Of a stretch of 43,878 nucleotides of DNA, positions 30,673 through 43,838 are shown one piece after another. This DNA comes from Pseudomonadota bacterium (lineage in GTDB: Bacteria; Pseudomonadota; Gammaproteobacteria; Burkholderiales; Rhodocyclaceae): the NCBI GenBank assembly GCA_008501585.1, contig QQUN01000077.1:1-43878 (forward strand), in the 5' to 3' direction. A program made the position numbers and the translations under genes. The notes under the pieces were generated by a model that worked only from the letters and a program-made list of their open reading frames with translations, had not been told where the DNA came from and did no database searches. Every line of letters begins with the position of its first letter. Position 1 is the first letter of the stretch.

Positions 30673-31989
30673 TCAGAAGAAGCGATAGGTGTAGTCGAGG
30701 TACAGGCGGTGGTCGCGCTCGTCCTCTTTCACGCCATCGAGGCGGCCGGTCTTGTCGGACTTGTAGTCGAGGTAGGTGTAGCGGACGCCGAGGCCCTTGA
30801 CCACGGGAATGGCGTAGCGCACGTCGAGCGCCAGTTCGCTCTCGTCGGCCTTGCCCAGCGAGGGCACGTGGCTGTTGCGGGCGCCGGAGCCGCTCTTGTA
30901 GCTGATCGTGGTTTTCAGGCCCTTGATGTAATCCTTCCAGTCGTAGCCAAGCTTGGCCATCCAGACCAGTTCGTCACGGTTGGAGAAGTCGGCCAGGACG
31001 CCACCGGTGGGGAACACGTTGGTGCCGTGGTCGCCAGCGAAGTTGTCCTCGATCCAGGCGCCGTCGAACTTGGACACGGCGCCGCCGAGCAGCACGTTGC
31101 CGAAGGTCCAGTCCGCCGCCACATACACACCGAAACCGTCGTTGTCGCTGGCGGTGCGGCCGGCGACTGCGCCGGCGACATCTTCGTCGTCCAGTTCGCT
31201 GCTTTCCGAGCCGGTCACGAACAGGTCGCCATCGTCACGCGAGGTGTGCACGCCGCCGGTGAGCTTGAGCTTGGACTTCTCCGCCAGGGCAAAGGTGTAG
31301 GACGCCACCAGGCCGGTCTTGCTCAGGAAGTTGTCGGCCTTGAGGTGTTCCACGTTCACGCTGAAGGGGCCGGAGCTGTAGCTCACGCCAACTAGGCCGA
31401 TGTAGTCGATGTCGCCCTCGGCCGAGCGGTCGGTCTTGAATTCGTAGAAGTGGGCGTCGGAGCGCGGCGACCACTCGTTGTACATGGCGCCATAGACCTT
31501 CAGGCCCTTCACCGGCGTGATATCGATGGTGCCGCCAGAGAAAGAGTTGGGGATGGCGCGGCTGCCGGAGCTGCTCAGCAGCATGCTCTTGTGCACCTGG
31601 CGACCCAGCTTGGCGCTGACCATGTCCTGGTACTTCAGCTTGACGAAGGCCTGGCCGAGCTTGCCGAAGGACTCGTGAACGTCGCCGTCACCATCAACCG
31701 AAAGGATATCGGACGTCAGGCGGCCGCTGGCGCCCAGTTCGGTCACGCTGTAGCCTGACAGGCCGATGCCAATGACATCCCAGAAGTACGGCGATTCGTA
31801 GTTCAGCTGCAGACCGAGTGCGGACTGGCTGCGATCGTTGGCGTCGTTCTCGTAGTCACGGTCGAAGTAGATGCCGCGCGCCTTGAGTTCCAGCGAGTGG
31901 CCCTCCAGGCCTGCGGCCGTGGCCGTGCCGCTCAGGACCAGTGCGCCGAGCAGGCACTGGAGCAAGGGGGAAATGCGTTGCTGTTTCAT
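30673..31989 (-). CDS. OprD-family outer-membrane porin
   Basis: The 438-residue protein has a signal peptide (cleavage near ATAAG, residue 26), a long run of alternating polar/aromatic beta strands, and a C-terminal phenylalanine (TYRFF), as required for outer-membrane insertion. Strand pattern and length match the OprD family (18-stranded, substrate-selective porins). In Pseudomonas, OprD members include OpdH, which takes up cis-aconitate and tricarballylate. The following tricarballylate locus makes such a substrate likely but not certain. CAGGAGACAAC precedes the ATG; a good terminator follows the stop. Confidence 0.88.
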   Translation of the reverse strand: MKQQRISPLLQCLLGALVLSGTATAAGLEGHSLELKARGIYFDRDYENDANDRSQSALGLQLNYESPYFWDVIGIGLSGYSVTELGASGRLTSDILSVDGDGDVHESFGKLGQAFVKLKYQDMVSAKLGRQVHKSMLLSSSGSRAIPNSFSGGTIDITPVKGLKVYGAMYNEWSPRSDAHFYEFKTDRSAEGDIDYIGLVGVSYSSGPFSVNVEHLKADNFLSKTGLVASYTFALAEKSKLKLTGGVHTSRDDGDLFVTGSESSELDDEDVAGAVAGRTASDNDGFGVYVAADWTFGNVLLGGAVSKFDGAWIEDNFAGDHGTNVFPTGGVLADFSNRDELVWMAKLGYDWKDYIKGLKTTISYKSGSGARNSHVPSLGKADESELALDVRYAIPVVKGLGVRYTYLDYKSDKTGRLDGVKEDERDHRLYLDYTYRFF

Positions 31990-32123
31990 GTTGTCTCCTG
32001 TGTTTTCTGGATTTGCTGTGGGGGCAAATGCGGTTTTTGACGCAGCGCGCCAGGTGTTGTCTGATCTCGCCACCTCGAACGCAGTATGGTTGGCATGATT
32101 GATGCGCGGAAATGCTTTGTCGG

Positions 32124-32239: not shown

Positions 32240-33337
32240 TCAGGCCGCCTGGCGGATTTTTCCGACCGGCACGTGGACCACACCGACGAATAGCGGCCGT
32301 GCGGTGCGCACCAGCCCGGCGACGGCGAAGCGGGGCGCCTCGGGGGTGGAGTCAGCGGCTTCGCCCATGCGGATGTCCAGGCCACCGGCGGGATGCTCGA
32401 TGCTGATCAGGTCGGGATCGGCCGCCGATCGACGGGCGTAGCGGGCCGGGACCGTGCCGGTGATGCTCGCTGCCGCGGCGAGGCACAGTGCGCCGGTGAC
32501 GGCGAAAGCCGAGTGGCAGGACCACGGGGTGAAATAGCGCGAGGCAATGGTGCCGCCGCGCCCGGGGGCGGCCACCAGCGCGATTTTCGGCAGCACCGAC
32601 TGGCGCACGTCGCCCAGCCCGGCGCGCAGGGCCACCGCCAGGCGGATGGTTTCAAGACGGGCCTTCAGCGCCGTGTCGGCATCGAGTTCCTGTTTGGTTT
32701 CGTGGCCGGTCTTGCCCAGGGCCTCGGCCGCAACGAACACCAGCGGCGACGCGAAATCGATGCAGGTCACCTCGATGCCGTCGACCACGTCGACACGCTG
32801 ACCGGTGGGGAACAGCTTGCCAGTCTTGGCGCCGGCGGCGTCGAGGAAGTTCAGCACGATCGGGGCGCCCGTACCGGGCACGCCATCGATGCGGGTATCG
32901 CCCTCGTAGGTGACCACGCCGCCGGGCGTCTGCACCACGGCCTCGACGATCTTGCCGGTGTTGCGGTTCAGGATGCGCAGCCGGGTGACCGGGTCCTGTG
33001 CGGCGACCAGGCCGTTCTCGATCGCGAAGGGGCCGACGCCGGCGAGCATGTTGCCGCAGTTGGGCATGGTGTCGACGGTCGATTGGTCGACCGAGACCTG
33101 GGCAAACAGGTACTCGATGTCGATGTCCTCGCGCGACGAGGGGCTCACCACCACCGCCTTGCTGGACAGCGTGTCGCCACCGCCGATGCCATCGACCTGG
33201 CGGATGTGCGGCGAGCCCATCGCGGCGAGCAGGGTCTGGTCGCGCTCGAGCGGGTCGCTCGGCAGGTCATGCGCCTGGAAGTACGGCCCCTTCGAGGTGC
33301 CGCCGCGCATCAGGGTGCAGGGAATGTTCTTGAACAT
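32240..33337 (-). CDS. PrpF-family isomerase (aconitate/oxalomesaconate type)
   Basis: The 365-residue protein belongs to PrpF, with the diaminopimelate-epimerase-like fold. It has MRGGTSKGPYF (10-20), IGGGDTLSSKAVVV with Lys60, and MPNCGNM with Cys94; the Lys-Cys spacing equals that of the proposed catalytic pair in Shewanella PrpF. Family members shift double bonds or cis/trans geometry in tricarboxylates: 2-methylaconitate, aconitate, or 4-oxalomesaconate (GalD). Next to tcuAB the most sensible substrate is aconitate. It starts 103 bases after the dehydrogenase stop and has GAGGA before the ATG. The last gene of the cluster before the porin. Confidence 0.9.
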   Translation of the reverse strand: MFKNIPCTLMRGGTSKGPYFQAHDLPSDPLERDQTLLAAMGSPHIRQVDGIGGGDTLSSKAVVVSPSSREDIDIEYLFAQVSVDQSTVDTMPNCGNMLAGVGPFAIENGLVAAQDPVTRLRILNRNTGKIVEAVVQTPGGVVTYEGDTRIDGVPGTGAPIVLNFLDAAGAKTGKLFPTGQRVDVVDGIEVTCIDFASPLVFVAAEALGKTGHETKQELDADTALKARLETIRLAVALRAGLGDVRQSVLPKIALVAAPGRGGTIASRYFTPWSCHSAFAVTGALCLAAAASITGTVPARYARRSAADPDLISIEHPAGGLDIRMGEAADSTPEAPRFAVAGLVRTARPLFVGVVHVPVGKIRQAA

Positions 33338-33415
33338 GGAGTCCTCGTTCGCAGTTCGACCACAAGCGACTCATTCTCGCGCGCGACGATCAATGACTGA
33401 AGTGAAGATTTCATT

Positions 33416-33444
33416 CTGACTAATGCCTGAGTGGCATTAGTCAG
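33416..33444. repeat. 12-bp perfect inverted repeat at the dehydrogenase stop codon
   Basis: CTGACTAATGCC (33416-33427) and GGCATTAGTCAG (33433-33444) are perfect 12-base arms with a 5-base loop. The right arm contains the stop codon of the 2-hydroxyacid dehydrogenase gene. No T-run follows on the minus strand (AATGAAATC), so a simple terminator is unlikely. It lies about 80-107 bases upstream of the PrpF-family gene, so an operator or an RNA-processing hairpin is plausible. Confidence 0.75.
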
Positions 33445-34409
33445 TGGGCTGCTGCCGCGCTCAGATACGCGCGCACATGGCCAAACGCGTTGTTGAAATA
33501 CGCCTCGTAGGTGTCGCGCTCGACAAAGCCCAGGTGCGGTGAGCACAGGATGCGCGGGTGCCCCAGGTAGGCCTGCACGCCGCCCGGTTCGTCCTCGAAC
33601 ACATCGAGCGCGGCACTGCCCGGCCGCCCGGTCGCCAGCGCAGCGAGGACGGCACCGGGGGCGACCAGCTCGGCGCGGCTGGTATTGACCAGCAAGGCAT
33701 GCGGCTGCATGGCGGCGAGGTCGCTGGCGGTGACGATGTGGCGCGTCTCGGGTGTCATCCGCAGGTGCAGGCTCAGCACATCGGCCTGTGCGAAGAAGGC
33801 CTTGCGGTCGGCCACGAAGTGATCACCTGCCTGTGTGGCGGCCTGGGCGGAGCCGTCGCGCCCGTGGGCAATCACCCGCATGCCGAAGGCGCGACCGAAG
33901 GCCGCCACCCGCGCGCCGATGCGCCCATAGCCCCAGATGCCGAGCGTGCGGCCGTTGAGCACGGTGCCGAGCGATTCGTCCTCGCGCCGCTCGGCGCTGC
34001 GCTGCCAGCGGCCGGCCTCGAGCTGGCGCACGTAGGGCACCAGCCGGCGCGAGGCGGCCAGCACCAGCGCCCAGGTCAGTTCAGCCGGCGCGATGGGGTT
34101 GCCGCTGCCCTCGCGCACGGTCACGCCGTGGCGGGTGCAGGCGTCGAGGTCGATGCACGCGGCGAGCCGCCCGGTCTGGACGATCAGCCCCAGCTGGGGC
34201 AGCGCGGCGATCACCTCGGCGCTGATGCGGGTGCGCTCGCGGATGAGTACCAGGCAGCGGGTGTGGCGCAGCGCGTCGATGAGCGCGGCGTCGCCCTCGA
34301 GCGGCGTGTTCAGCACCTGCAGTTCTGCATCGAGCCCGTCGAGCAGGCGCGTGGCGTTGAGGCGCGACACCACGCCCTGGTAGTCGTCCAGCACGGTAAT
34401 GCGGTTCAT
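33441..34409 (-). CDS. D-2-hydroxyacid dehydrogenase family protein
   Basis: The 322-residue NAD-dependent enzyme has the Rossmann loop GIWGYGRIGARV (about residues 157-168) and the catalytic trio Arg in VNTSRAELV, Glu in DVFEDEPGG, and His in CSPHLGF. Such enzymes reduce 2-oxo acids to D-2-hydroxy acids or the reverse; phosphoglycerate- and glyoxylate/hydroxypyruvate-type members are close. The ATG overlaps the MFS stop by four bases, so it belongs to the operon, although its role in tricarballylate use is unclear. The stop codon lies in a strong inverted repeat. Confidence 0.88.
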   Translation of the reverse strand: MNRITVLDDYQGVVSRLNATRLLDGLDAELQVLNTPLEGDAALIDALRHTRCLVLIRERTRISAEVIAALPQLGLIVQTGRLAACIDLDACTRHGVTVREGSGNPIAPAELTWALVLAASRRLVPYVRQLEAGRWQRSAERREDESLGTVLNGRTLGIWGYGRIGARVAAFGRAFGMRVIAHGRDGSAQAATQAGDHFVADRKAFFAQADVLSLHLRMTPETRHIVTASDLAAMQPHALLVNTSRAELVAPGAVLAALATGRPGSAALDVFEDEPGGVQAYLGHPRILCSPHLGFVERDTYEAYFNNAFGHVRAYLSAAAAH

Positions 34410-35731
34410 GGTCGGGTCTCCGGAGGGGATCTCTCGGCAGTACGGGGCGCGATGCCCTGTGCGGCATACAGCGGGCGCAGGTGCACCCGCATGAATTCGA
34501 GTCGCAGATGGAAGCGCACGCCCGCGGCAATGAGCAGCAGGCCGGCGCCGAGCAGGGCCACGTCGGGGGCGAGGACGTCGGCCACCCAGCCGACCAGCAG
34601 GCCGCCGGCGGCCGCGGCGCCAAGGTTGGCGGCGGTGTACAGCGCCAGCACCCGCCCGCGCAGCCCCTCGGGCAGGATGGTCTGCAGGATGGTGTTGGTC
34701 GATGCGTTGCACACGATCATGCTGAAGCCGAGCAGGAACAGCTGCAGCAGGGCCAGCCACAGGTGGTCGGTCAGCGCGAAGCCGGTGAGCGACACCCCGG
34801 CGAGCACGCAGGCGTGCCGGATGCTGCCGGTGAGGCCGCGCACGGAGGGGCGCGACATCAGGTAGGCAGAGGCCACCAGCGCGCCGGCGCCGGCGCTGCC
34901 GAGCAGGACCCCGAGGGTGTTCGGCCCGCCGGCGAACACGTCGCGGGCGAAGGCCGGCATCATCGGCAGATAGCTTGCGGCGAAGAAATTCAACAGGGCC
35001 ACCTGGGACAGCAGCATGCGCACCGGCACGCTGCCGCGGACATAGCCGAAGCCCTCGCGCATCGCCGTGCCGAAGGGCATGGGTGTCGGCCGCGGGGCGG
35101 CGGGCGCGAGCGTGCGCAGCGCCAGGATCAGGGCCAGGAACGAGACGGCATTGACCGCAAAGCATACCGCCGCGGAGGTGGCCGCGAGCAGCAGCCCGGC
35201 AGCCGGCGGGCCGATGAAGCGGGCGATGTTGAAGGTCAGCGTATTGAGCGCGATGGCGTTGGGGATGTCCTCGCGCCGGGCGACGAGCTGGCCGGCCAGC
35301 GAATGGCGCAGGGGCGCATCGAAGCTGTTGAGCACGCCGAGCATGCCGGCGGCCACCAGGATCAGCCAGGGGGTGATCCAGCCGAAATGGGTGAACACCG
35401 CCAGAAACACCGCCTGCGCCAGCATCAGGGACTGGATCTGCAGCATCAGCCGCTTGCGGTCGCTGCGGTCGATGATGATACCGGCGAAGGGCGCCACCAT
35501 CAGCTGTGGGGCGTTGCTAAGAAAGGCGACGGCGCCCAGCAAAACCGTCGAGTCGGTGAGTCGGTAGGCCAGCCAGCCAAGCGCCACCTGCTGGATCCAG
35601 GTGCCGACCAGCGACAAGGACTGGCCAAAGAAGTAATGCCGGTAGGCCGGCGAGCCCAGCGCGCGCCAGGCCTGGCGACGCGCCGGTGCTGCCGGCCGTG
35701 GTTGATCGATGCTGGGCGGGGCCTCAGGCAT
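34406..35731 (-). CDS. MFS transporter, DHA3/EntS-like
   Basis: The 441-residue protein has about twelve hydrophobic segments and the DHA3-type start [30 protein letters not shown], with [15 protein letters not shown] between helices 2 and 3. DHA3 members such as EntS export small molecules. It is not of the MHS citrate-symporter type found as TcuC in Salmonella. It overlaps tcuB by 8 bases and the dehydrogenase by four. It may export a pathway intermediate, or have been recruited for uptake; sequence does not decide. Confidence 0.85.
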
Positions 35732-36893
35732 CGCCCCCGACACCGATCGGGTTGGGGCGACGCTTCTCGATCGCCCACTTGAGCAGGGCCGCGCTGCGGT
35801 AGAAGCCGTGGGCAAACTTGCCGTAGGGCATGGTCAGGAACAGGCCCATCACCACGCCGAGGTGGATCGCCAGCAGCAGGCCCATGGCGCCGGTGTCGCG
35901 CGCGGCGAGCAGGGCCAGGCCGGTCAGGCTGGTGAAGAAGAGCAGGGCGATGAAGCCGCGATCCATCGGCTTCTGTGCCGCGTCGCCGTGCTCCGGGTGG
36001 CGCTTGAGGTTGAGCCAGAACAGGCCGGCCGGGCCGATCAGCAGGCCGATGCCGCCCACCGTGCCGAGCAGCACCGGCAGGCTGGTGAAGGCGTAGGGCG
36101 CCTCCCAGCCGAACACATAGTGGTACAGCGTGGCCACGCTGGTGGCGGCGAAGCACAGCATGAAGCCGTAGAAGGTCAGGTGATGGAAGCGGCGCCGGGC
36201 CAGGGTGAAGGCGTCGTCGGCATTGTTGCAGCCCTTGCCGTGGCCGCCATCGAGGTAGGTCAGGCGCAGCACGTCATGCGTGGTCTCGGCAATGGCCGCG
36301 CTGCTGGCGCGACCGGGTGCGGCCTGGCGCCAGAAGCGGGTCACGCCGATGCCCAGCGCCAGCGCCGCGAACAGGAATACCGGTGCGAACATCGACACCA
36401 GCAGGTTGTGCGGGAAGATGGCGTAGAAGTTGCCGGCCAGCGGGGTGTGGAAGAGCGTGCCCTTCAGGGCGAGGGCGAGCACCAGGAACAGGGCCAGGGC
36501 ACCGGCGACGGCCAGGGCGACGGTCACGCCGTTGTTGCGGTAGAGCCGTCCGAAACCGGCCGGCCAGGCAAAGTCCGAATAGGTGTGTGCGCGCACCTTG
36601 GCCATGGCCTGAGGCACGTTGACCGCAAATTCGTGCGGCGGCGCGTACTGGCAGGCATGCAGGCAGGCGCCGCAGTTGTGGCACAGGTTGGCCAGGTAGT
36701 GCACATCGGCCTTGTCGAAGCTGAGCCGGCGGGTCATGGCCGGGAAGACCGCGCAGAAGCCCTCGCAGTAGCGGCAGGCGTTGCAGATCTGCAGGATCCG
36801 GCCCACCTCGGCCTCGTCGGCATCGAGTGCGGGCAGGACGCGTCCGGCCGCCAGGTCGGCCGCTTCGCGGGTGAGGGTGTCAAGCGTGTGCAT
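35724..36893 (-). CDS. tcuB: Tricarballylate-utilization Fe-S/membrane protein TcuB (CobZ C-terminal type)
   Basis: The 389-residue protein has two ferredoxin-like [4Fe-4S] motifs, Cys37-40-43-47 ([11 protein letters not shown]) and Cys71-74-77-81 ([11 protein letters not shown]), then several membrane helices with His residues in [15 protein letters not shown] and HLGVVM that could bind haem. TcuB passes electrons from TcuA's reduced FAD to the quinone pool. It overlaps tcuA by 14 bases. AAGGAG lies 5 bases before ATG 36893. Length and order equal those of Salmonella TcuB. Confidence 0.94.
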
Positions 36894-38304
36894 GGGTTGC
36901 TCCTTGGCGCGCGGCGGCCGCGGCATGGGCGCCGGCGATGCGGCCGAAGGTGGTGCCGATGGTCATGCCGACCCCGGCGGTGTAGCCCTTGCCGAGCACG
37001 TTGCCGGCCATCATTTCGCCGGCGACGAACAGGTTGGGGCTGGGCTGGCCCGAGAAATGGACGGCGGCCTGCTCGTTCACCTTCAGGCCCAGGTAGGTGA
37101 AGGTGATGCCCGGCTTGAGCGCATAGCCGCGGAAGGGCGGGGTGTCGATCGGCAGCGCCCAGTGGGTCTTGGCCGGCGACAGGCCCTCGGTGTGGCAGTC
37201 GTCCTGAATGGTGTGGTCGAAGGTGCCGACGCGGCAGGCGGCGTTGTACTCGCGAACCGTGCGCACGAAGGCGGCTTCGTCGATGCCCAGCTGACGGGCG
37301 AGTTCTTCGAGCGTGTTGGCCTGTGCGCCGGGAAACACCGGCGGCATGAAGCGGCCATTGGCCTTGGCGTCGATGATCGAGAAGCCGATCTGGCCGGGTT
37401 GTTGCGCCACCAGACGGCCCCAGATCGCGTAACGCTTGGGCCAGAAATCTTCGCCTTCGTCGTAGAAGCGTTCGGCGTGCTTGTTGACCACGATGCCCAG
37501 CGAGACGCAGTCGATGCGGGTGCAGATGCCACCGTCGTACTCCGGCGCGCGCGCGTCGATGGCCACGCAGTGCGATTGCGAGGGGTCGCCGATGCTGTCG
37601 GCGCCGGCCTCGATCATGGCCTTGAGCAGCACGCCGCGGTTGAAGCGGGTGCCGCGGATGGCGAAGTTGTCGGCCGGCCACTCGCCGTTCTCGTTCTGAC
37701 CCCAGGCTTCGCGCAGCCACTCACGGTTGGACTCGAAGCCGCCGGCCGCCAGCACGCATGCGCGGGCGGCGATGCGCTCGTTGCCCACCCAGGCGGCGCG
37801 GAAGGCGCCGTCCTCGAGCTCGATCCGGTCGACCGGTGATTCGTAGCGGATGCGCACCCCCAGCGCCTCGGCGCTGCGGTAGTAGGCGTTGACCAGCGCC
37901 TTGCCGCCGCCCATGAAGAAGGCGTTGGTGCGCGACAGGTGCAGCGTGCCGGAGAGCGAGGGCTGGAAGTTGACGCCATGCTTGCGCATCCAGTCGCGGC
38001 AACGGGAGGACTCGCGGATCGCCAGGCGGGCGAGCTTTTCGTTGGTCATGCCGCCGGTGACCTTGAGCAGGTCTTGCCAGAATTCTTCTTCGGGGTAGCG
38101 CTCGGTCAGCACGTCCTGCGGGGCGTCGTGCATGCAGCGCAGGTTGCGGGTGTGGCTGGAGTTGCCGCCGCGCCATTCGCGCGGTGCGGCTTCGAGCAGC
38201 AGCACCGAGGCGCCGGCTTCGCGGGCGACCAGTGCGGCGCACAGCGCGGCATTGCCGCCGCCGATGACCAGCACGTCCACACTGTTGGCGTGCGCGTGTT
38301 CCAT
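36880..38304 (-). CDS. tcuA: FAD-dependent tricarballylate dehydrogenase TcuA
   Basis: The 474-residue flavoprotein oxidises tricarballylate to cis-aconitate. It has the FAD Rossmann start [18 protein letters not shown] (9-26), the fumarate-reductase-like segments [13 protein letters not shown] and GFESNREW, and the C-terminal FAD region [34 protein letters not shown]. The adjacent tcuB supplies its Fe-S partner. The ATG at 38304 has AGGAGC before it. CobZ, a related fusion in corrin synthesis, is ruled out by the separate tcuB and the local gene set. Confidence 0.94.
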
Positions 38305-38366
38305 GAATCGTGCTCCTGTTGGCTGTGGTGTTGGGCTCGACTATCGTGGTTTCGGGGGCGGCCGCC

Positions 38367-39323
38367 CTAAGCCGAAGCCATATCGGGCCATCTTGATTCA
38401 AGATGGAGGGGGGTGACGCCGCGCCAGCGACCACTGTCGACCAACTGGCCGACGGTGCGTTGCAAGGTCGTGCGGGTGGCGATGGCGGCGGGCGAGAGTT
38501 CGTCCTCCGACAGGCTGCACAGCAGGTTGCGCCGTGCGGTGCCTTCGTCCTCGAGCTCGCTCCAGCGCAGGCGCGACGGGGCGTCCGCCTGGCGGGCGAG
38601 GGCGGACCATGGCTGCACGCTGGCGCCGAGGCCGTGGTTGACCATGTCCATCAGCACATACAGCGAGTCGACCTCGGCAACCACGTTGGGGGTGACGCCC
38701 AGCGCGTTGAGCGCCGTGTCGAGCACGCGGCGCAGGCCGTGGCGCGGGGTGGGCAGCACCAGCGGCAAACCATTGAGCGCATCCAGCCGGGTGGGCAGCG
38801 GCGTGGGCGCAGCGTCGGCACCGGCAATGACGAACAGCCGTTCGTCGAGCATCGGCTGGATCGACCAGCGGCGTGCCTGGTGGCCGTCGAAGAGCACGGC
38901 GATGTCGAGCTCGCGGCTGTTGAGCATCTGGCCGAGATGGCCGGACATGGCCTCGACGAGGCGGATGCGGATGTCGGGATACTGCCGGTGCATCGCGTCC
39001 ATCAAGGGCATGCCGAGCACGCCGGCGGTGGTGGGCGCCAGCCCGACGCTTACCACGCCCGACAGGCGGGCCTGCTGGGCCGCGCTGGCGGCTTCCTCGG
39101 CATGGCGCAGGCACAGCTGCGCATGGGCGATGAAGGCCAGCCCGGATTCGGTCGGTGCAATGCCGCCGGGGCTGCGCTCGAGCAGGCGGGTGGACAGCTT
39201 GCTCTCGAGCTTCTGGATCTGCAGGCTGATGGCCGACTGCGCCACACCGAGGTCGAGCGCCGCCTGGCTGATGCTGCCCAGTTCGATCGTTCGTAAGAGA
39301 TAACGCAGTTGCCGCAGTTCCAT
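38367..39323 (-). CDS. LysR-family regulator, TcuR-like
   Basis: The 318-residue protein begins MELRQLRYLLRTIELGSISQAALDLGVAQSAISLQIQKLESKL, a classic LysR helix-turn-helix, followed by an effector domain (about 90-295) starting VVSVGLAPTTAGVLG. Its position just before tcuAB matches TcuR of Salmonella and related regulators of citrate/tricarballylate genes, but here it is on the same strand between the two enzyme blocks rather than divergent. It begins 50 bases past the possible small ORF. The inducer would be tricarballylate, aconitate or itaconate. Confidence 0.88.
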   Translation of the reverse strand: MELRQLRYLLRTIELGSISQAALDLGVAQSAISLQIQKLESKLSTRLLERSPGGIAPTESGLAFIAHAQLCLRHAEEAASAAQQARLSGVVSVGLAPTTAGVLGMPLMDAMHRQYPDIRIRLVEAMSGHLGQMLNSRELDIAVLFDGHQARRWSIQPMLDERLFVIAGADAAPTPLPTRLDALNGLPLVLPTPRHGLRRVLDTALNALGVTPNVVAEVDSLYVLMDMVNHGLGASVQPWSALARQADAPSRLRWSELEDEGTARRNLLCSLSEDELSPAAIATRTTLQRTVGQLVDSGRWRGVTPLHLESRWPDMASA

Positions 39324-39373
39324 CGCTGTCGAAGCCTGTCAAAAGTGAAGCCGCCATGGTGTTTCGGTGTGGG

Positions 39374-39553
39374 TCAGTTCTCGCTCAGGATGGCGACCCG
39401 GTCCACGTCGTTCGATTGCGCCACGTCGTGGTCGGCCGGGCGGGGCGCCTCGCTTCGCTCACCGCGGTGTGCTTCGCTGATCGAGCCGAACATCACCGGG
39501 CAGTCGAGCTGGTGCCGGGCCAGCTCGCTGAGCTGTGTGTCTGAGCCAGGCAT
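39374..39553 (-). CDS. Possible small ORF (59 aa) following the lyase gene
   Basis: An ATG one base after the lyase stop (TGACATG) opens a 59-codon frame starting MPGSDTQLSELARHQLDCPVM and ending VDRVAILSEN. The close coupling and a GGGGA-like sequence upstream favour translation. Against it, the middle (RGERSEAPRP) is encoded by a GAGCGAAGCGAG-type low-complexity segment often seen in non-coding DNA. No family is recognised. Confidence 0.4.
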   Translation of the reverse strand: MPGSDTQLSELARHQLDCPVMFGSISEAHRGERSEAPRPADHDVAQSNDVDRVAILSEN

Positions 39554-39554
39554 G

Positions 39555-40913
39555 TCATTTCCCCGCGGCGGCGGCGCGGGCCAGCACCTTGTCCACCATC
39601 ACGCCGGCCTGGCCGAGATAGTTGGCCGGATCGCACAGCTTGGCCAGGGCGTCGCGGTCCAGGTGCACGTTGATTTCCGGGTGCCCGGAAAGGATGTCGA
39701 GCAGCGGGCGGTCGGTCTGGATGGCTTCACGGCACAGGTCGTACACCAGGTCGTGGGCGTACTCGCGACCAATGTAGGGGCCCAGGCCCATCATCACGGC
39801 CTCGGACATGACCAATCCCTGGGTGAGGTCGATGTTCTTGCGCATGTTGCCTTCACTCACTTCCAGGCCCTCGAGCACGAAGCGGGTCTGCTTGAGCGCG
39901 CCGGCGAGCAGGCAGAAGGCCTCGGGCAGGGCGATCCATTCGATCTCCCACGGGCCGGTGGAGCGTTCATGGTCGGCAACCATCGCGTCCATCAGCGCTG
40001 CCGAGTGCTGGCGCACCACCGAGATGGCGGCATGGATGTAGCAGCTGGAGATGGGGTTGCGCTTCTGCGGCATGGTGCTGCTCGAGCCGCGGCCCGGGTG
40101 GAATGGCTCGAAGACCTCGGCCACCTCGTGCTGCATCATGAGCTTCACGTCCATGGCGATCTTGCCCAGCGACCCACCGACCAGACCGAGGAAGGCGCCC
40201 ACCTCGGCGATGGTGTCGCGCACCGTGTGCCAGGCGATGTCGGGCTGGGCCAGGCCCAGTTCGGCCATCAGCCCGGCCTGGGTTTCCATGGCGCCGGACT
40301 CGATCGAGGCCAGGGTGCCGCAGGCACCGCCGAACTCGCCCATCAGCACGCGCGGACGCAGCTGGGCCAGGCGCTCGCGGTGGCGCTCGATGCCGGCCAG
40401 GATGGCGGCAGTCTTGAAGCCGAAGGTGACCGGAATCGCCTGCTGAAGGTTGCTGCGGCCGATCACCGGGGTGTCGCGGTAGCGCTTGGACAAGGCCACC
40501 AGCGCGGCCGAGATGGCGGCGAGTTCCGCGTCGACGATCTCCAGCCCTTCGCGGATCTGCATCACCGTGGCGGTGTCGGTGATGTCCTGGGTGGTGGCGC
40601 CCCAGTGCACGAACTCGCCGAGCTTGTCGCGGCACAGCTGGTTGATCTGGGTGACCACGCCGAGCACCGGGTAGCCGATGCGTTCGGTCTGCTCGCGCAG
40701 CCGGGTCATGTCGATCTTGTCGATGTCGCAGTTGCGGATGATTTCGTCGGCGGCTTCCTGCGGGATGATGCCGAGCCGGCCCTGCACCACGGCCAGTGCG
40801 CGCTCGATGGCGACGTAGTGGCGGGTGCGGTTGCGGTCGGACCACACCTCGCGCATGGCGTCGGTGCTGAAGATGTTGCCGAAGATGCTGGAGTCGATGA
40901 TGCTGGCGGCCAT
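39555..40913 (-). CDS. Aspartase/fumarase-superfamily lyase (adenylosuccinate lyase/CMLE-like)
   Basis: The 452-residue enzyme has the superfamily blocks HWGATTQDITDT (103-114), a middle helix with FGGACGT, and the mobile signature loop GSSSTMPQKRNP (276-287) bearing the catalytic serine. It resembles 3-carboxy-cis,cis-muconate cycloisomerase and the broad adenylosuccinate-lyase-like group; a true purine PurB is unlikely in this catabolic operon. Fungal trans-aconitate decarboxylase, which makes itaconate, belongs to this superfamily, and the neighbours use aconitate on one side and the enzymes of itaconate breakdown on the other. AGGAG precedes the ATG at 40913. Confidence 0.88.
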   Translation of the reverse strand: MAASIIDSSIFGNIFSTDAMREVWSDRNRTRHYVAIERALAVVQGRLGIIPQEAADEIIRNCDIDKIDMTRLREQTERIGYPVLGVVTQINQLCRDKLGEFVHWGATTQDITDTATVMQIREGLEIVDAELAAISAALVALSKRYRDTPVIGRSNLQQAIPVTFGFKTAAILAGIERHRERLAQLRPRVLMGEFGGACGTLASIESGAMETQAGLMAELGLAQPDIAWHTVRDTIAEVGAFLGLVGGSLGKIAMDVKLMMQHEVAEVFEPFHPGRGSSSTMPQKRNPISSCYIHAAISVVRQHSAALMDAMVADHERSTGPWEIEWIALPEAFCLLAGALKQTRFVLEGLEVSEGNMRKNIDLTQGLVMSEAVMMGLGPYIGREYAHDLVYDLCREAIQTDRPLLDILSGHPEINVHLDRDALAKLCDPANYLGQAGVMVDKVLARAAAAGK

Positions 40914-40960
40914 TGGGGTTCTCCTGGGGTCGGGGGATTCGGTGTTGTTCTGGATGGGGG

Positions 40961-41782
40961 TCAGTTCGGCCCGCAGCTGTGGCTGCGGCCGAGGATGGCC
41001 TGTGCCTTGAGCACCACGGGCCGGTCGATCATTTTTCCGTCGAGCTGGACGGCGCCTTCGGAGGCCTCTGCGGCGGCCAGCACGCGCTGCGCCCAGGCCT
41101 GCTCTTCGGCGCTGGGGCGGGCGGCGGCATGGATCCAGTCCACCTGCCGGGGGTGGATGCACATCTTTGCGCCGAAGCCATGGACCCGGGCAAAGGCGAA
41201 GTCGGCGCGCACCCGCGCCTCGTCGGTGACCGAGGGGGTGACGCCGGCCACCGGCGCAGGCAGCTCGGCGCAGCGCGACGCGATGGCGATGCGTGCCGAG
41301 GCGTAGGCCAGGCCCGCCTCGTCACCCGGCAGGTCGAGGTCCACCGCGTAGTCCAGCGTGCCGAAGGCCAGGCGCGCGACACCGTCGGTGGTGGCGATCT
41401 GGTCCACGTTGTGGATGCCGCGCGCGGTCTCGACCAGGGCCAGCACCGCGGCGGCAGGCGCGCCGGCGCGCACGCGGTCGATCTGCTCCGGCCACTCGCT
41501 CTTGGGCAGCATCACCTGGCCCACCCCGGCCTCGCGGATCATGGCCAGGTCGTCGGCGAACCACTCGGACTGGGTGTCGTTGATGCGCACGGCGATGCGT
41601 TCGGCCAGGGCGGCATGCAGGACGACCCAGTGGGCGATGGCGTCTCGCGCGGCCGCCTTGTCCGCCGGCGTGACGGCGTCCTCGAGGTCGAGGATGACGC
41701 TGCCGGCGTCAGTGGCGAAGGCCTTGTCGAAGCGCTCCGGTCGGTTGCCCGGAACGAAGAGGTAGGTGATGGGCGGGTGCAT
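40961..41782 (-). CDS. CitE-like lyase (citramalyl-CoA/malyl-CoA lyase family)
   Basis: The 273-residue TIM-barrel protein belongs to the HpcH/HpaI aldolase-citrate lyase group: YLFVPGNRPERFDKA at the start, LDLEDAV (31-37), VRIND with Arg67, the metal-binding Glu118 in VETARGI, Asp144/Asp148 in FGTLDYAVDLD, and KMCIHPRQ. Stand-alone CitE-like proteins such as human CLYBL and the Pseudomonas Ccl cleave citramalyl-CoA to acetyl-CoA and pyruvate. The genes just upstream, a CoA transferase and a hydratase, could supply that substrate. A citrate lyase complex is not encoded here. GGAGAGG precedes the ATG. Confidence 0.9.
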   Translation of the reverse strand: MHPPITYLFVPGNRPERFDKAFATDAGSVILDLEDAVTPADKAAARDAIAHWVVLHAALAERIAVRINDTQSEWFADDLAMIREAGVGQVMLPKSEWPEQIDRVRAGAPAAAVLALVETARGIHNVDQIATTDGVARLAFGTLDYAVDLDLPGDEAGLAYASARIAIASRCAELPAPVAGVTPSVTDEARVRADFAFARVHGFGAKMCIHPRQVDWIHAAARPSAEEQAWAQRVLAAAEASEGAVQLDGKMIDRPVVLKAQAILGRSHSCGPN

Positions 41783-41801
41783 GATGGCCTCTCCTGGGCG
41801 C

Positions 41802-42983
41802 TCAGATGGCGCCTTCGGCCTCGAGCGCGGCGATCTGCTCGGCCGAGTAGCCGAGTTCGGCGAGGATGGCGGCGGAGTGCGCGCCCAGCGCAGGCACCGG
41901 GTCCATGCGCGGATCGCCTTCTTCCCACGAGCCCGGCGGCAGCAGGGCCGGCACCGTGCCGACCGAGGTTTCGATGTTGCGCCAGCGTTTGCGCGCCTTG
42001 AGCTGCGGGTGATCCCACACGGCATGCATGTCGTTGACCTGGGCGTTGGCGATGCTCGCGGCGTCGAGGCGTTCGACCACCTGCTCGGCGCTCAGGCCGG
42101 CGAAGGCGTCGATGATGATCTGGCGCAGTTCGACCCGCGCGGCGCTGCGCCGCGAGTTGGTCGAGAAGCGCTCCTCGCGGGCCAGCTCGGGCTGGAGCAG
42201 CACCTTGGCGCAGAAGCCGGCCCATTCGCGCTCGTTCTGCAGGCCGAACATCACCGTCTTGCCGTCGCCGGCGGGGAAGGGGCCGTAGGGGTAGATGGTG
42301 GCGTGGCTGGCGCCGGTGCGCGGCGGCGGGGCGGCGCCGTCGAAAGCGTAGTAGAGCGGGTAGGTGGTCCACTCGATCAGGCTCTCGAGCATGGAGATGT
42401 CCAGGTGCTGGCCGCGGCCGGTCTTCTGGCGCTGCATCAGGGCGGCGAGGATGTTGGTGTAGGCGTACATGCCGGCCGAGATGTCGGCGATCGAGGGGCC
42501 CGCCTTGCAGGGTTCCTCCTCGGTGCCGGTCACGGACAGGAAGCCCGATTCGCTCTGGATGAGCAGGTCGTAGGCCTTCTTGTCGCGGTAGGGGCCGTCG
42601 GCCCCGTAGCCGGAGATGTCGCAGACGATGATCTCCGGCTTGATGGCCGACAGCGCCTCGTAAGAGAGGCCCAGCCGCGCCGCCGCGCCGGGGGCGAGGT
42701 TCTGCACCACCACGTCGGCTTCTTCGAGGATCAGCCGCTTGAGCGCGGCCTGCGCCTCGGGGTGCTTGACGTCGAGGGTGAGCGATTCCTTCGAGCGGTT
42801 GATCCACACGAAGTGCGAGGCCAGGCCGCGCACCCGCTCGTCGTAGCCGCGGGCGAAGTCGCCCACGCCGGGGCGCTCGACCTTGATCACGCGTGCGCCC
42901 AGGTCGGCGAGCTGGCGGGTGGCGAAGGGCGCCGCGATGGCGTGTTCGAGGGTGACGACGGTAATGCCTTCAAGGGGTCTCAT
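41802..42983 (-). CDS. CaiB/BaiF class III CoA transferase
   Basis: The 393-residue protein shows the class III start PLEGITVVTLEHAIAAPFATRQLADLGARVIKVE, the NRSKESLTLDVKHPE block (62-76) and the nucleophile Asp167 in PSIADISAGMYA, equal to Asp169 of formyl-CoA transferase. Class III enzymes move CoA from succinyl-CoA or another donor to organic acids. Itaconate and mesaconate CoA transferases in Pseudomonas and the 3-hydroxypropionate bi-cycle belong to this class. It lies 9 bases after the hydratase and 19 before the lyase gene, so it most likely forms itaconyl-CoA or mesaconyl-CoA. Confidence 0.93.
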   Translation of the reverse strand: MRPLEGITVVTLEHAIAAPFATRQLADLGARVIKVERPGVGDFARGYDERVRGLASHFVWINRSKESLTLDVKHPEAQAALKRLILEEADVVVQNLAPGAAARLGLSYEALSAIKPEIIVCDISGYGADGPYRDKKAYDLLIQSESGFLSVTGTEEEPCKAGPSIADISAGMYAYTNILAALMQRQKTGRGQHLDISMLESLIEWTTYPLYYAFDGAAPPPRTGASHATIYPYGPFPAGDGKTVMFGLQNEREWAGFCAKVLLQPELAREERFSTNSRRSAARVELRQIIIDAFAGLSAEQVVERLDAASIANAQVNDMHAVWDHPQLKARKRWRNIETSVGTVPALLPPGSWEEGDPRMDPVPALGAHSAAILAELGYSAEQIAALEAEGAI

Positions 42984-42992
42984 GGGGGCTCC

Positions 42993-43838
42993 TTACTTGA
43001 TGACGGCGGTGGCTTCCATGGTCAGCCAGCCCTCGTGGTCCTTCGCCCACAGGCGGAAGGTCTTGCCGTCGGGCTGCGGCTCGCCGCAGACGAAGAAGTG
43101 GTTGATGTCGAACACCGGGCGCACCGCGCGGAATTCGTAGCTGGCGAGCTCGGCGTCGGGCAATTGGTGGCGCAGCAGGTCGAGCAGCAGGGTGGCGACC
43201 ATCGGGCCATGAACGACCAGACCGGGATAACCCTCGACCTCGGTGACGTACTTGCGGTCGTAGTGGATGCGGTGGCCGTTGAAGGTCAGCGCCGAGTAAC
43301 GGAACAGCAGCACGTCGTCCGGCACCCATTGCTTCTCCCAGGTGGCACTGGCCGGCGCGGCCTTGGGCGGCGGCGCGACGTCATCGGGTTTTGCTGCCTC
43401 GCGATACACGATGTCGTGGAACTCGGTCAGCGCGATGTCGGTTTCGCCTTCGCGGCAGATTTCGTGGCGCACCTTGACGAACACCAGCGGGCCGGTGCGA
43501 CCGGTCTTCTCGGTGACGTCATGGATGGTCGAGGTGCGCGTCATTGCGTCGCCGATGCGCAGCGGCTTGTGAAAGGTGAATTGGCTGCCGGCCCACATGC
43601 GCCGCGGCAGCGGCACCGGGGGCAGGAAGCCGCCGCGCTTGGCATGGCCATCGGGGCCGATTTCCGACTGGCGGTGCAGCGGCAGGAAGTACAGCCAGTG
43701 CCACAGGCCGGGCAGCGGCGTGCCCACCGGCGGGCGTTCGGCGGGGCGGTCGAAGGTCGCCGACAGGGCGGCGTAGGGCGTCGCGGTGGCGATGTCGGAG
43801 GCCGCTTCCGAGCGGCCGATCCAGTCCTTGAGATTCAT
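42993..43838 (-). CDS. MaoC/HTD2-type acyl-CoA hydratase (Ich/Meh-like)
   Basis: The 281-residue protein has an N-terminal FAS1-like dehydratase region (about 1-150) and a C-terminal hot-dog domain with the hydratase motif YSALTFNGHRIHYD followed by VEGYPGLVVHGP; Asp/His of the HRIHYD segment are expected to activate water. This two-part design occurs in mesaconyl-C4-CoA hydratase (Meh) and in itaconyl-CoA hydratase (Ich) of Pseudomonas, which give citramalyl-CoA. It is the first visible gene of the operon; the 40 bases upstream reach the window edge, so the promoter and any earlier gene are not seen. Confidence 0.9.
   Translation of the reverse strand: MNLKDWIGRSEAASDIATATPYAALSATFDRPAERPPVGTPLPGLWHWLYFLPLHRQSEIGPDGHAKRGGFLPPVPLPRRMWAGSQFTFHKPLRIGDAMTRTSTIHDVTEKTGRTGPLVFVKVRHEICREGETDIALTEFHDIVYREAAKPDDVAPPPKAAPASATWEKQWVPDDVLLFRYSALTFNGHRIHYDRKYVTEVEGYPGLVVHGPMVATLLLDLLRHQLPDAELASYEFRAVRPVFDINHFFVCGEPQPDGKTFRLWAKDHEGWLTMEATAVIK

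Follow-up and report, generated by a model that had tools for sequence, protein, structure and literature searches.

The DNA analyzed here (hereafter, the window) is a stretch of 43,878 nucleotides that constitutes the whole of contig C27 in a 4.29-Mb genome; we regard the host as a species of Denitromonas. The minus strand of the window carries ten genes that probably encode together a route for the breakdown of tricarballylate and aconitates by way of itaconate. At the center of the locus lies a lyase of the aspartase/fumarase superfamily that groups by sequence with Tad1, the trans-aconitate decarboxylase of Ustilago maydis, and that is preceded by genes for a MaoC/HTD2-type hydratase, a CaiB/BaiF-type coenzyme A (CoA) transferase and a CitE-like lyase (MaoC, CaiB and CitE below, or the CoA triad). 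An earlier reading, made from the letters and their open reading frames (the sequence-only reading), had suggested that a complete route from tricarballylate and aconitate to acetyl-CoA and pyruvate is encoded here, with the lyase as a bacterial trans-aconitate decarboxylase. All ten genes listed in that reading are present on the one strand between positions 32240 and 43838, and the list of open reading frames and our family searches agree on them (Table 1).

The description of the locus as nearly gap-free suits two blocks better than one established operon. The genes for MaoC, CaiB, CitE and the lyase are separated by 9, 16 and 29 bp, respectively, and those for TcuA and TcuB are adjacent, with an overlap of 47 bp, whereas 231 bp separate the lyase from the LysR gene, beyond which follow TcuA, TcuB, the MFS protein, the dehydrogenase and PrpF. 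A scan for promoters and terminators was uninformative, with no promoters and seven terminator-like sites, against 4.3 expected. The contig ends 40 bp upstream of MaoC, and contig C43, which encodes TctA, TctC and a second PrpF (locus L074), overlaps that end of the window by 198 bp at 97% identity; presumably it adjoins the window beyond MaoC, in an arrangement that matches the layout of related Denitromonas. The importer beside MaoC varies within the genus, with TctA/TctC in the window strain and the TRAP components DctM/DctQ in genome G002 (locus L039).

Table 1. Genes of the locus, from upstream to downstream; the starts of CitE, the lyase and the dehydrogenase were picked within longer open frames.
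Product and proposed role	Position in the window	Strand	Evidence
MaoC/HTD2-type hydratase, proposed itaconyl-CoA hydratase (Ich)	42993..43838	-	closest solved structure 8khg
CaiB/BaiF class III CoA transferase, proposed itaconate CoA transferase (Ict)	41802..42983	-	PF02515, 354 bits (cut-off 23)
CitE-like lyase, proposed (S)-citramalyl-CoA lyase (Ccl)	40961..41785	-	best solved relatives 9nzb/8khl
Aspartase/fumarase-superfamily lyase, proposed bacterial trans-aconitate decarboxylase	39555..40931	-	Tad1 clade and residues
LysR-type regulator, proposed pathway regulator	38367..39323	-	PF00126 and PF03466
TcuA, flavin adenine dinucleotide (FAD) tricarballylate dehydrogenase	36880..38304	-	NF006130, 777 bits (cut-off 369); TIGR02485, 681 bits (373)
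TcuB, 4Fe-4S protein of tricarballylate utilization	35724..36926	-	NF011607, 703 bits (cut-off 524); TIGR02484, 422 bits (247)
MFS transporter, MFS_3 family	34406..35815	-	PF05977, 219 bits
D-2-hydroxyacid dehydrogenase family protein	33441..34418	-	PF02826, 160 bits
PrpF-family isomerase, proposed aconitate cis/trans isomerase (Adi1/TarA-like)	32240..33337	-	PF04303, 389 bits (cut-off 27)
Porin-like protein beside the cluster, possible outer-membrane entry	30673..32073	-	named by reading the translation

Kinship of the lyase with Tad1

Among proteins of solved structure, the closest relative of the window lyase is Tad1 (521 bits, 55% identity), followed by 3c8t (452 bits), Pseudomonas putida PcaB (362 bits), CreD (245 bits) and adenylosuccinate lyases (179 bits at most). 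In reverse queries, PcaB prefers PcaB over Tad1 (574 versus 361 bits), and a lyase from the sister clade of the Tad1 group prefers 3c8t (553 versus 439 bits). The sequence-only reading had placed the lyase beside Tad1, and phylogeny bears this out: Tad1 and the bacterial lyases (11 in the first tree) form a single clade, apart from PcaB, with support of 100/99 in both trees (39 and 31 rows), and in neither do the bacterial lyases group firmly with a C-N lyase clade. A constraint uniting them with the 3c8t group to the exclusion of the Tad1, L159 and PcaB rows, a grouping picked post hoc once the first tree was known, was rejected (approximately unbiased [AU] test, p 0.0001).

The same kinship is visible at the level of single residues. 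Fifteen positions of the window lyase are common to Tad1 (W30, N34, I85, L104, T118, S160, N161, K263, S283, Y298, H300, E329, S376, G384 and Y391), the criterion being that 95% or more of 91 bacterial rows carry the Tad1 residue, that no more than one of 21 sister-clade rows does and that all four PcaB rows lack it; the bacterial rows are the window, 10 whole-genome loci and 80 named loci, at least four of the rows being the same locus taken twice. By comparison, a single row of the sister clade agrees with the bacterial set against both Tad1 and PcaB at 3 to 9 positions, and the clade taken together does so at only one. Ser283 corresponds to Tad1 Ser320, which was mutated in the work behind the crystal entries, and is a serine in all 91 bacterial rows. 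Arg323 corresponds to Tad1 Arg360 and, unlike Ser283, is retained beyond the Tad1 clade as well. Entries 9h4h and 9h4g carry the changes at these two Tad1 residues, and 9h4g contains trans-aconitate.

A Foldseek search with a predicted model of the lyase also returned Tad1 first by E-value, at TM-scores that are about equal for Tad1 (0.81) and 3c8t (0.80); with a mean predicted local distance difference test (pLDDT) score of 76.8 and values below 50 at residues 272-292 and 321-326, the active-site loops are of low confidence and the model serves for ranking folds only. PcaB is the best NCBIfam model for the lyase, which nonetheless misses both PcaB cut-offs (PRK09053, 482.6 bits against 595; TIGR02426, 346 against 355.75). 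On cut-offs, trees and residues we reject the readings of the lyase as a PcaB or a PurB, or as a member of a C-N lyase clade. On the strength of these comparisons, we propose that it is a bacterial trans-aconitate decarboxylase.

A lone lyase gene lies near transposase genes on plasmid pKOB1 of Komagataeibacter oboediens (L159:9001-10422). Its product groups with Ustilago Tad1 (support 93/84, at a junction of long branches) and retains 10 of the 15 diagnostic residues, which may hint at an exchange of genes between bacteria and fungi.

Linkage of the lyase to CoA genes across genomes

The distribution of the locus was surveyed by scanning one genome per species and keeping the best 80 of 376 related stretches, two of which (L084 and L086) come from one genome. 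Relatives of MaoC were found in 69 of these 80 loci, of CaiB in 66, of CitE in 58, of PrpF in 49, of TcuA in 21 and of TcuB in 22, in taxa that include Azoarcus, Aromatoleum, Thauera, Azospirillum, Massilia, Variovorax and Rhizobacter. For the 70 loci whose sequence extends 4 kb or more beyond the lyase on its upstream side, the corresponding counts are 65, 61, 51, 48, 19 and 20, and in 65 of the 70 a CitE, CaiB or MaoC gene on the same strand ends no more than 110 bp upstream of the lyase. The survey of co-occurrence that the sequence-only reading had called for is thus strongly positive. Accessory relatives are scarcer in the 80 loci (close LysR relatives in 17, the dehydrogenase and a porin-like protein in 14 each, the MFS protein in 10). 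In the loci inspected, the nearby importers are of carboxylate types (TctA/TctC, TRAP and DctA/SDF); the conjugative plasmid pCB82_1 of Bradyrhizobium sp. CB82, for instance, carries genes for LysR, DctA, MaoC, CaiB, a CoA ester lyase and the lyase. The conserved core of the locus is therefore MaoC-CaiB-CitE-lyase, with a carboxylate importer where this was inspected, and TcuAB is an accessory for tricarballylate.

Lyases outside the Tad1 clade do not keep this company. Among 21 control loci (L050-L070; 15-20 kb each, with lyases of 46-55% identity), none has a relative of MaoC, CitE, TcuA, TcuB or PrpF, and three give weak CaiB matches; two of these controls, L059 and L070, have an unstable position in the trees or one outside the main sister clade. 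Sister-clade lyases (L050, L052, L053, L055, L067 and L160) sit instead with GntR, carboxylate transporter and fumarase genes, as annotated in L160 (where the lyase is named pcaB) and as read from translations in the other loci. It is as if these lyases released fumarate from some substrate.

Within the genus, the lyase is present in five of the ten genomes searched, host included, and all five have the whole cluster. Unselected samples, in which at most four candidates were scored per genome, show the Tad1 clade to be rare: at 70% identity or more, 6 of 399 genomes from the order have it, counting the host, and of 398 from the phylum only the host itself does. In the annotated records covered, the core genes go under generic labels (MaoC family, CaiB/BaiF family, CoA ester lyase, adenylosuccinate lyase family) or under pcaB. 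Three loci are peculiar as sequences. CaiB is split into two tblastn pieces in L118 and L120, as is MaoC in L120, which suggests frameshifts or errors of metagenome assembly, and a metagenome bin titled Bordetella parapertussis (L093) carries MaoC-CaiB-CitE-lyase at 60-83% identity under a name that may be wrong.

Of the CoA triad, MaoC has the clearest affinity. Its only solved matches at an E-value of 0.001 or below are 8khg, an entry that bears the name itaconyl-CoA hydratase (230 bits; identical at 122 of 253 aligned positions, or 48%), and 8huc, a near-identical chain. The best solved relatives of CitE are 9nzb and 8khl (163 bits versus 105 for the next; 110 of 259 residues identical to 9nzb), entries named acyl-CoA lyase beta chain that we take to be the P. 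aeruginosa citramalyl-CoA lyase. The nearest NCBIfam models for CaiB are succinate-glutarate and other acyl CoA transferases, and its specificity for itaconate would be read from gene neighbors alone. The only other full-length MaoC relative found in the host (53%, contig C73) was considered as part of a second, canonical itaconate cluster and rejected, since the 18 kb covered around it show neither a CaiB nor a CitE relative, a check that did not extend to a search for the two across the whole host genome.

TcuA and TcuB both exceed curated NCBIfam cut-offs, and their identity is secure at that level. PrpF retains the SK and NCGN motifs, which would be catalytic to judge from differing GalD chains, and finds its best solved relative in Escherichia coli YbhH (387 bits), ahead of GalD (324 bits). 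The isomerase Adi1 of Ustilago has 4-oxalomesaconate tautomerase GalD as its closest known homolog (Geiser et al., PMC4720413), and in Bacillus the aconitate isomerases TarA and TbrA belong to the PrpF family too (PMC11495376). Because Adi1 itself is closest to a tautomerase, it is plausible by sequence that the window PrpF is an aconitate isomerase. In L082, L083 and L118 PrpF follows the lyase with no TcuAB in between, and therefore travels in these loci with the lyase and not with TcuAB.

Two further features of the PrpF proteins were observed. PrpF and a TctC periplasmic-receptor domain are fused in one open frame of 674-710 amino acids in L157:13862-15886 (Variovorax sp. SRS16 plasmid 3), L097, L102, L108, L112, L140, L142, L147, L148, L152 and L154, that is, in all 11 frames tested, ten of which, from the 80-locus set, were selected out of 30 PrpF frames longer than 500 amino acids; the joining of an isomerase to a solute-binding domain is odd. 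The cysteine of NCGN is often replaced by serine in PrpF proteins encoded upstream of the lyase (e.g. L074:3627-4715), with 14 Ser, 23 Cys and 9 unmatched, and in none of those encoded downstream (25 Cys, 0 Ser, 21 unmatched).

A candidate route through itaconate and its rivals

We consider it probable that the cluster is catabolic and delivers tricarballylate and aconitates to central metabolism by way of itaconate. TcuAB would oxidize tricarballylate to cis-aconitate, which the PrpF isomerase would interconvert with trans-aconitate, and the lyase would then decarboxylate trans-aconitate to itaconate and CO2. CaiB would convert itaconate to itaconyl-CoA, MaoC would add water to yield (S)-citramalyl-CoA and CitE would split the latter into acetyl-CoA and pyruvate. 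Every one of these reactions is our inference, as are its direction and what CaiB, CitE and PrpF act on; the steps assigned to these three enzymes are the weakest. In bacteria without TcuAB, the MaoC-CaiB-CitE-lyase unit would start from imported trans-aconitate. Since many bacteria possess that unit without TcuAB, the substrate shared by all is probably trans-aconitate, to which tricarballylate would be an optional addition. The single-locus route of the sequence-only reading is thus supported in its central part, by the Tad1 clade and the linkage, and has to be amended as regards TcuAB, which is accessory, and PrpF, for which the tautomerase assignment competes with that of aconitate isomerase. 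On a broader scale, and with somewhat less confidence, we favor the view that a dedicated module of importer, Ich, CoA transferase, Ccl and Tad1-type decarboxylase, in some cases borne on a plasmid, is widespread in Pseudomonadota, that free itaconate is a normal intermediate in the breakdown of trans-aconitate from plants, and that TcuAB was added in some lineages.

Several points weigh against this interpretation. We know of no activity for any bacterial member of the Tad1 clade, and Tad1 itself is a long branch in both trees, flagged as such by the tool. Cells with TcuAB could route cis-aconitate directly to aconitase, so that a detour calls for a reason; aconitase is inhibited by trans-aconitate and by tricarballylate, and avoiding that enzyme would be a possible benefit. 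CaiB, CitE and the lyase remain under every NCBIfam cut-off and MaoC matches no NCBIfam family. CitE scores almost equally as RipC_Ccl (its best model, with 134.7 bits against a cut-off of 375) and as citE (131.1 bits), and PrpF passes the cut-off of 4-oxalomesaconate tautomerase (NF033377, 496 against 440). In 19 of the 70 loci there is no CitE beside the lyase; a CitE-like gene occurs elsewhere in 18 of 19 genomes checked (those of 18 CitE-less loci and of L125), in what is a weak test that has no control. Four genomes of another family (loci L043, L046, L047 and L048) have MaoC near the lyase, and TcuAB in two cases, without CaiB or CitE, and G015 and G215 have none of the CoA triad near it. 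By keeping the best 80 of 376 loci, moreover, the survey is biased towards close relatives. Finally, a trio of genes of this kind in Cupriavidus has been assumed to serve "a different pathway", on the ground that no citramalyl-CoA lyase lies nearby (PMC12290011, 2025).

The best-placed alternative, which we regard as unlikely, is that the lyase acts on some other substituted succinate or muconate and that the cluster degrades another branched acid ending as citramalyl-CoA, for example via mesaconate. The superfamily is catalytically diverse, the position of the sister clade (about 50% identity), often beside fumarase, GntR and carboxylate transporters, suggests a fumarate-forming enzyme, and the different pathway favored for the Cupriavidus trio in 2025 would fit as well (PMC12290011), as would the description of Ich as a mesaconyl-C4-CoA hydratase too (PMC9875883). 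Against it, the trees, the AU test and the 15 exclusive residues place the window lyase with Tad1, and not with the fumarase-associated clade. Its Asn161 stands where that clade has the region-2 histidine, which is the usual acid/base of C-N lyases, and where PcaB has Trp or Leu.

A ring-cleavage route of the gallate/protocatechuate type, with PrpF as 4-oxalomesaconate tautomerase and the lyase as 3-carboxymuconate cycloisomerase, has little to commend it. The NCBIfam results point that way, with PrpF above the tautomerase cut-off and PcaB as the best lyase model, and in Variovorax SRS16 a tannase/feruloyl esterase gene adjoins a PrpF gene. Nonetheless, the lyase falls below both PcaB cut-offs, two solved PcaB proteins and PcaB genes beside protocatechuate dioxygenase (read from translations) fall elsewhere in the trees, and neither the ten genes of the locus nor the annotation of L156 and L157 includes a ring-cleavage dioxygenase; to our knowledge, moreover, MaoC, CaiB and TcuAB have no role in such a route. 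Equally hard to credit is production of itaconate or trans-aconitate for export by the MFS_3 protein of the window, as Ustilago makes itaconate with Tad1 and Adi1 alongside an MFS exporter (PMC4720413), given that itaconate would be destroyed by the CoA triad that accompanies the lyase in most of the 70 loci, that the nearby transporters identified are of importer types and that a relative of this MFS protein occurs in just 10 of the 80 loci.

Relation to described systems and significance

Each enzyme type of the catabolic route proposed here is already known, and what would be new is the joined bacterial locus with a function. As in Salmonella TcuRABC, TcuA and TcuB lie alongside a LysR gene; in Salmonella, TcuC serves as the transporter and cis-aconitate passes on to aconitase, whereas the window has a proposed decarboxylase and a CoA route attached. 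The Ict-Ich-Ccl clusters (P. aeruginosa PA0878-0883, Cupriavidus E6A55_22580-22600) have in common with the window a CoA transferase, a MaoC-type hydratase and a CitE-like lyase (PMC12290011, PMC9875883), but the window differs from them in its Tad1-clade lyase, PrpF and TcuAB, and in that its ten genes include neither MmgE/PrpD nor acyl-CoA dehydrogenase. With the itaconate cluster of U. maydis the window shares a PrpF-family isomerase and a Tad1-clade lyase with its diagnostic residues, which in the fungus lead from cis-aconitate through trans-aconitate to itaconate; that cluster is fungal, biosynthetic and exporting, and the accessible part of its published table contains no TcuAB or CoA triad (PMC4720413). 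The Bacillus TarRAB system likewise relies on a PrpF-family aconitate isomerase, together with an importer, for growth on trans-aconitate, but TarAB leads from trans- to cis-aconitate, and itaconate goes unmentioned in the accessible text (PMC11495376). The closest precedent for the chain of reactions is a 2021 review, which joins itaconyl-CoA, itaconate and cis- or trans-aconitate in a hypothetical formation of cis-aconitate from pyruvate and acetyl-CoA in purple bacteria; the scheme runs in the reverse direction, and its accessible table names an aconitate decarboxylase (K17724), with no Tad1-type gene and no locus (PMC8307300).

Aconitate is abundant in some grasses. The bacterial routes found in print isomerize trans-aconitate into the tricarboxylic acid cycle (PMC11495376), whereas a decarboxylating route would bypass aconitase. 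In the small part of the open-access literature that was consulted (including PMC13188880 and PMC13307414), neither a bacterial trans-aconitate decarboxylase nor this joined locus with a function was found, and the Tad1 enzyme type was found described from a smut fungus only. If the proposal is correct, the window lyase would be, as far as found, the first bacterial trans-aconitate decarboxylase; such enzymes would become available for itaconate production, and environmental bacteria would have a reason for itaconate-degrading genes that is unrelated to macrophages. Why environmental bacteria degrade itaconate would become directly testable, and an unassigned locus with generic annotation would turn into a specific pathway that can be put to the test.

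The statement of the sequence-only reading that no such bacterial operon was known to have been described stands, within the literature consulted, for a locus with a function, and needs correction in that part of the arrangement is in print without one. Gonner and co-workers report a second locus in Cupriavidus necator with a hydratase, a CoA transferase and an 'adenylosuccinate lyase family protein', to which no function is given and for which TcuAB is not mentioned in the accessible text (PMC12290011). This is very probably the same family of locus as the window, and our proposal would supply its function. Their remark on the absence of a citramalyl-CoA lyase is compatible with the itaconate route, as the missing lyase could be supplied from elsewhere. 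A plasmid of C. oxalaticus (L155) likewise carries MaoC-CaiB-lyase, without CitE and with PrpF nearby.

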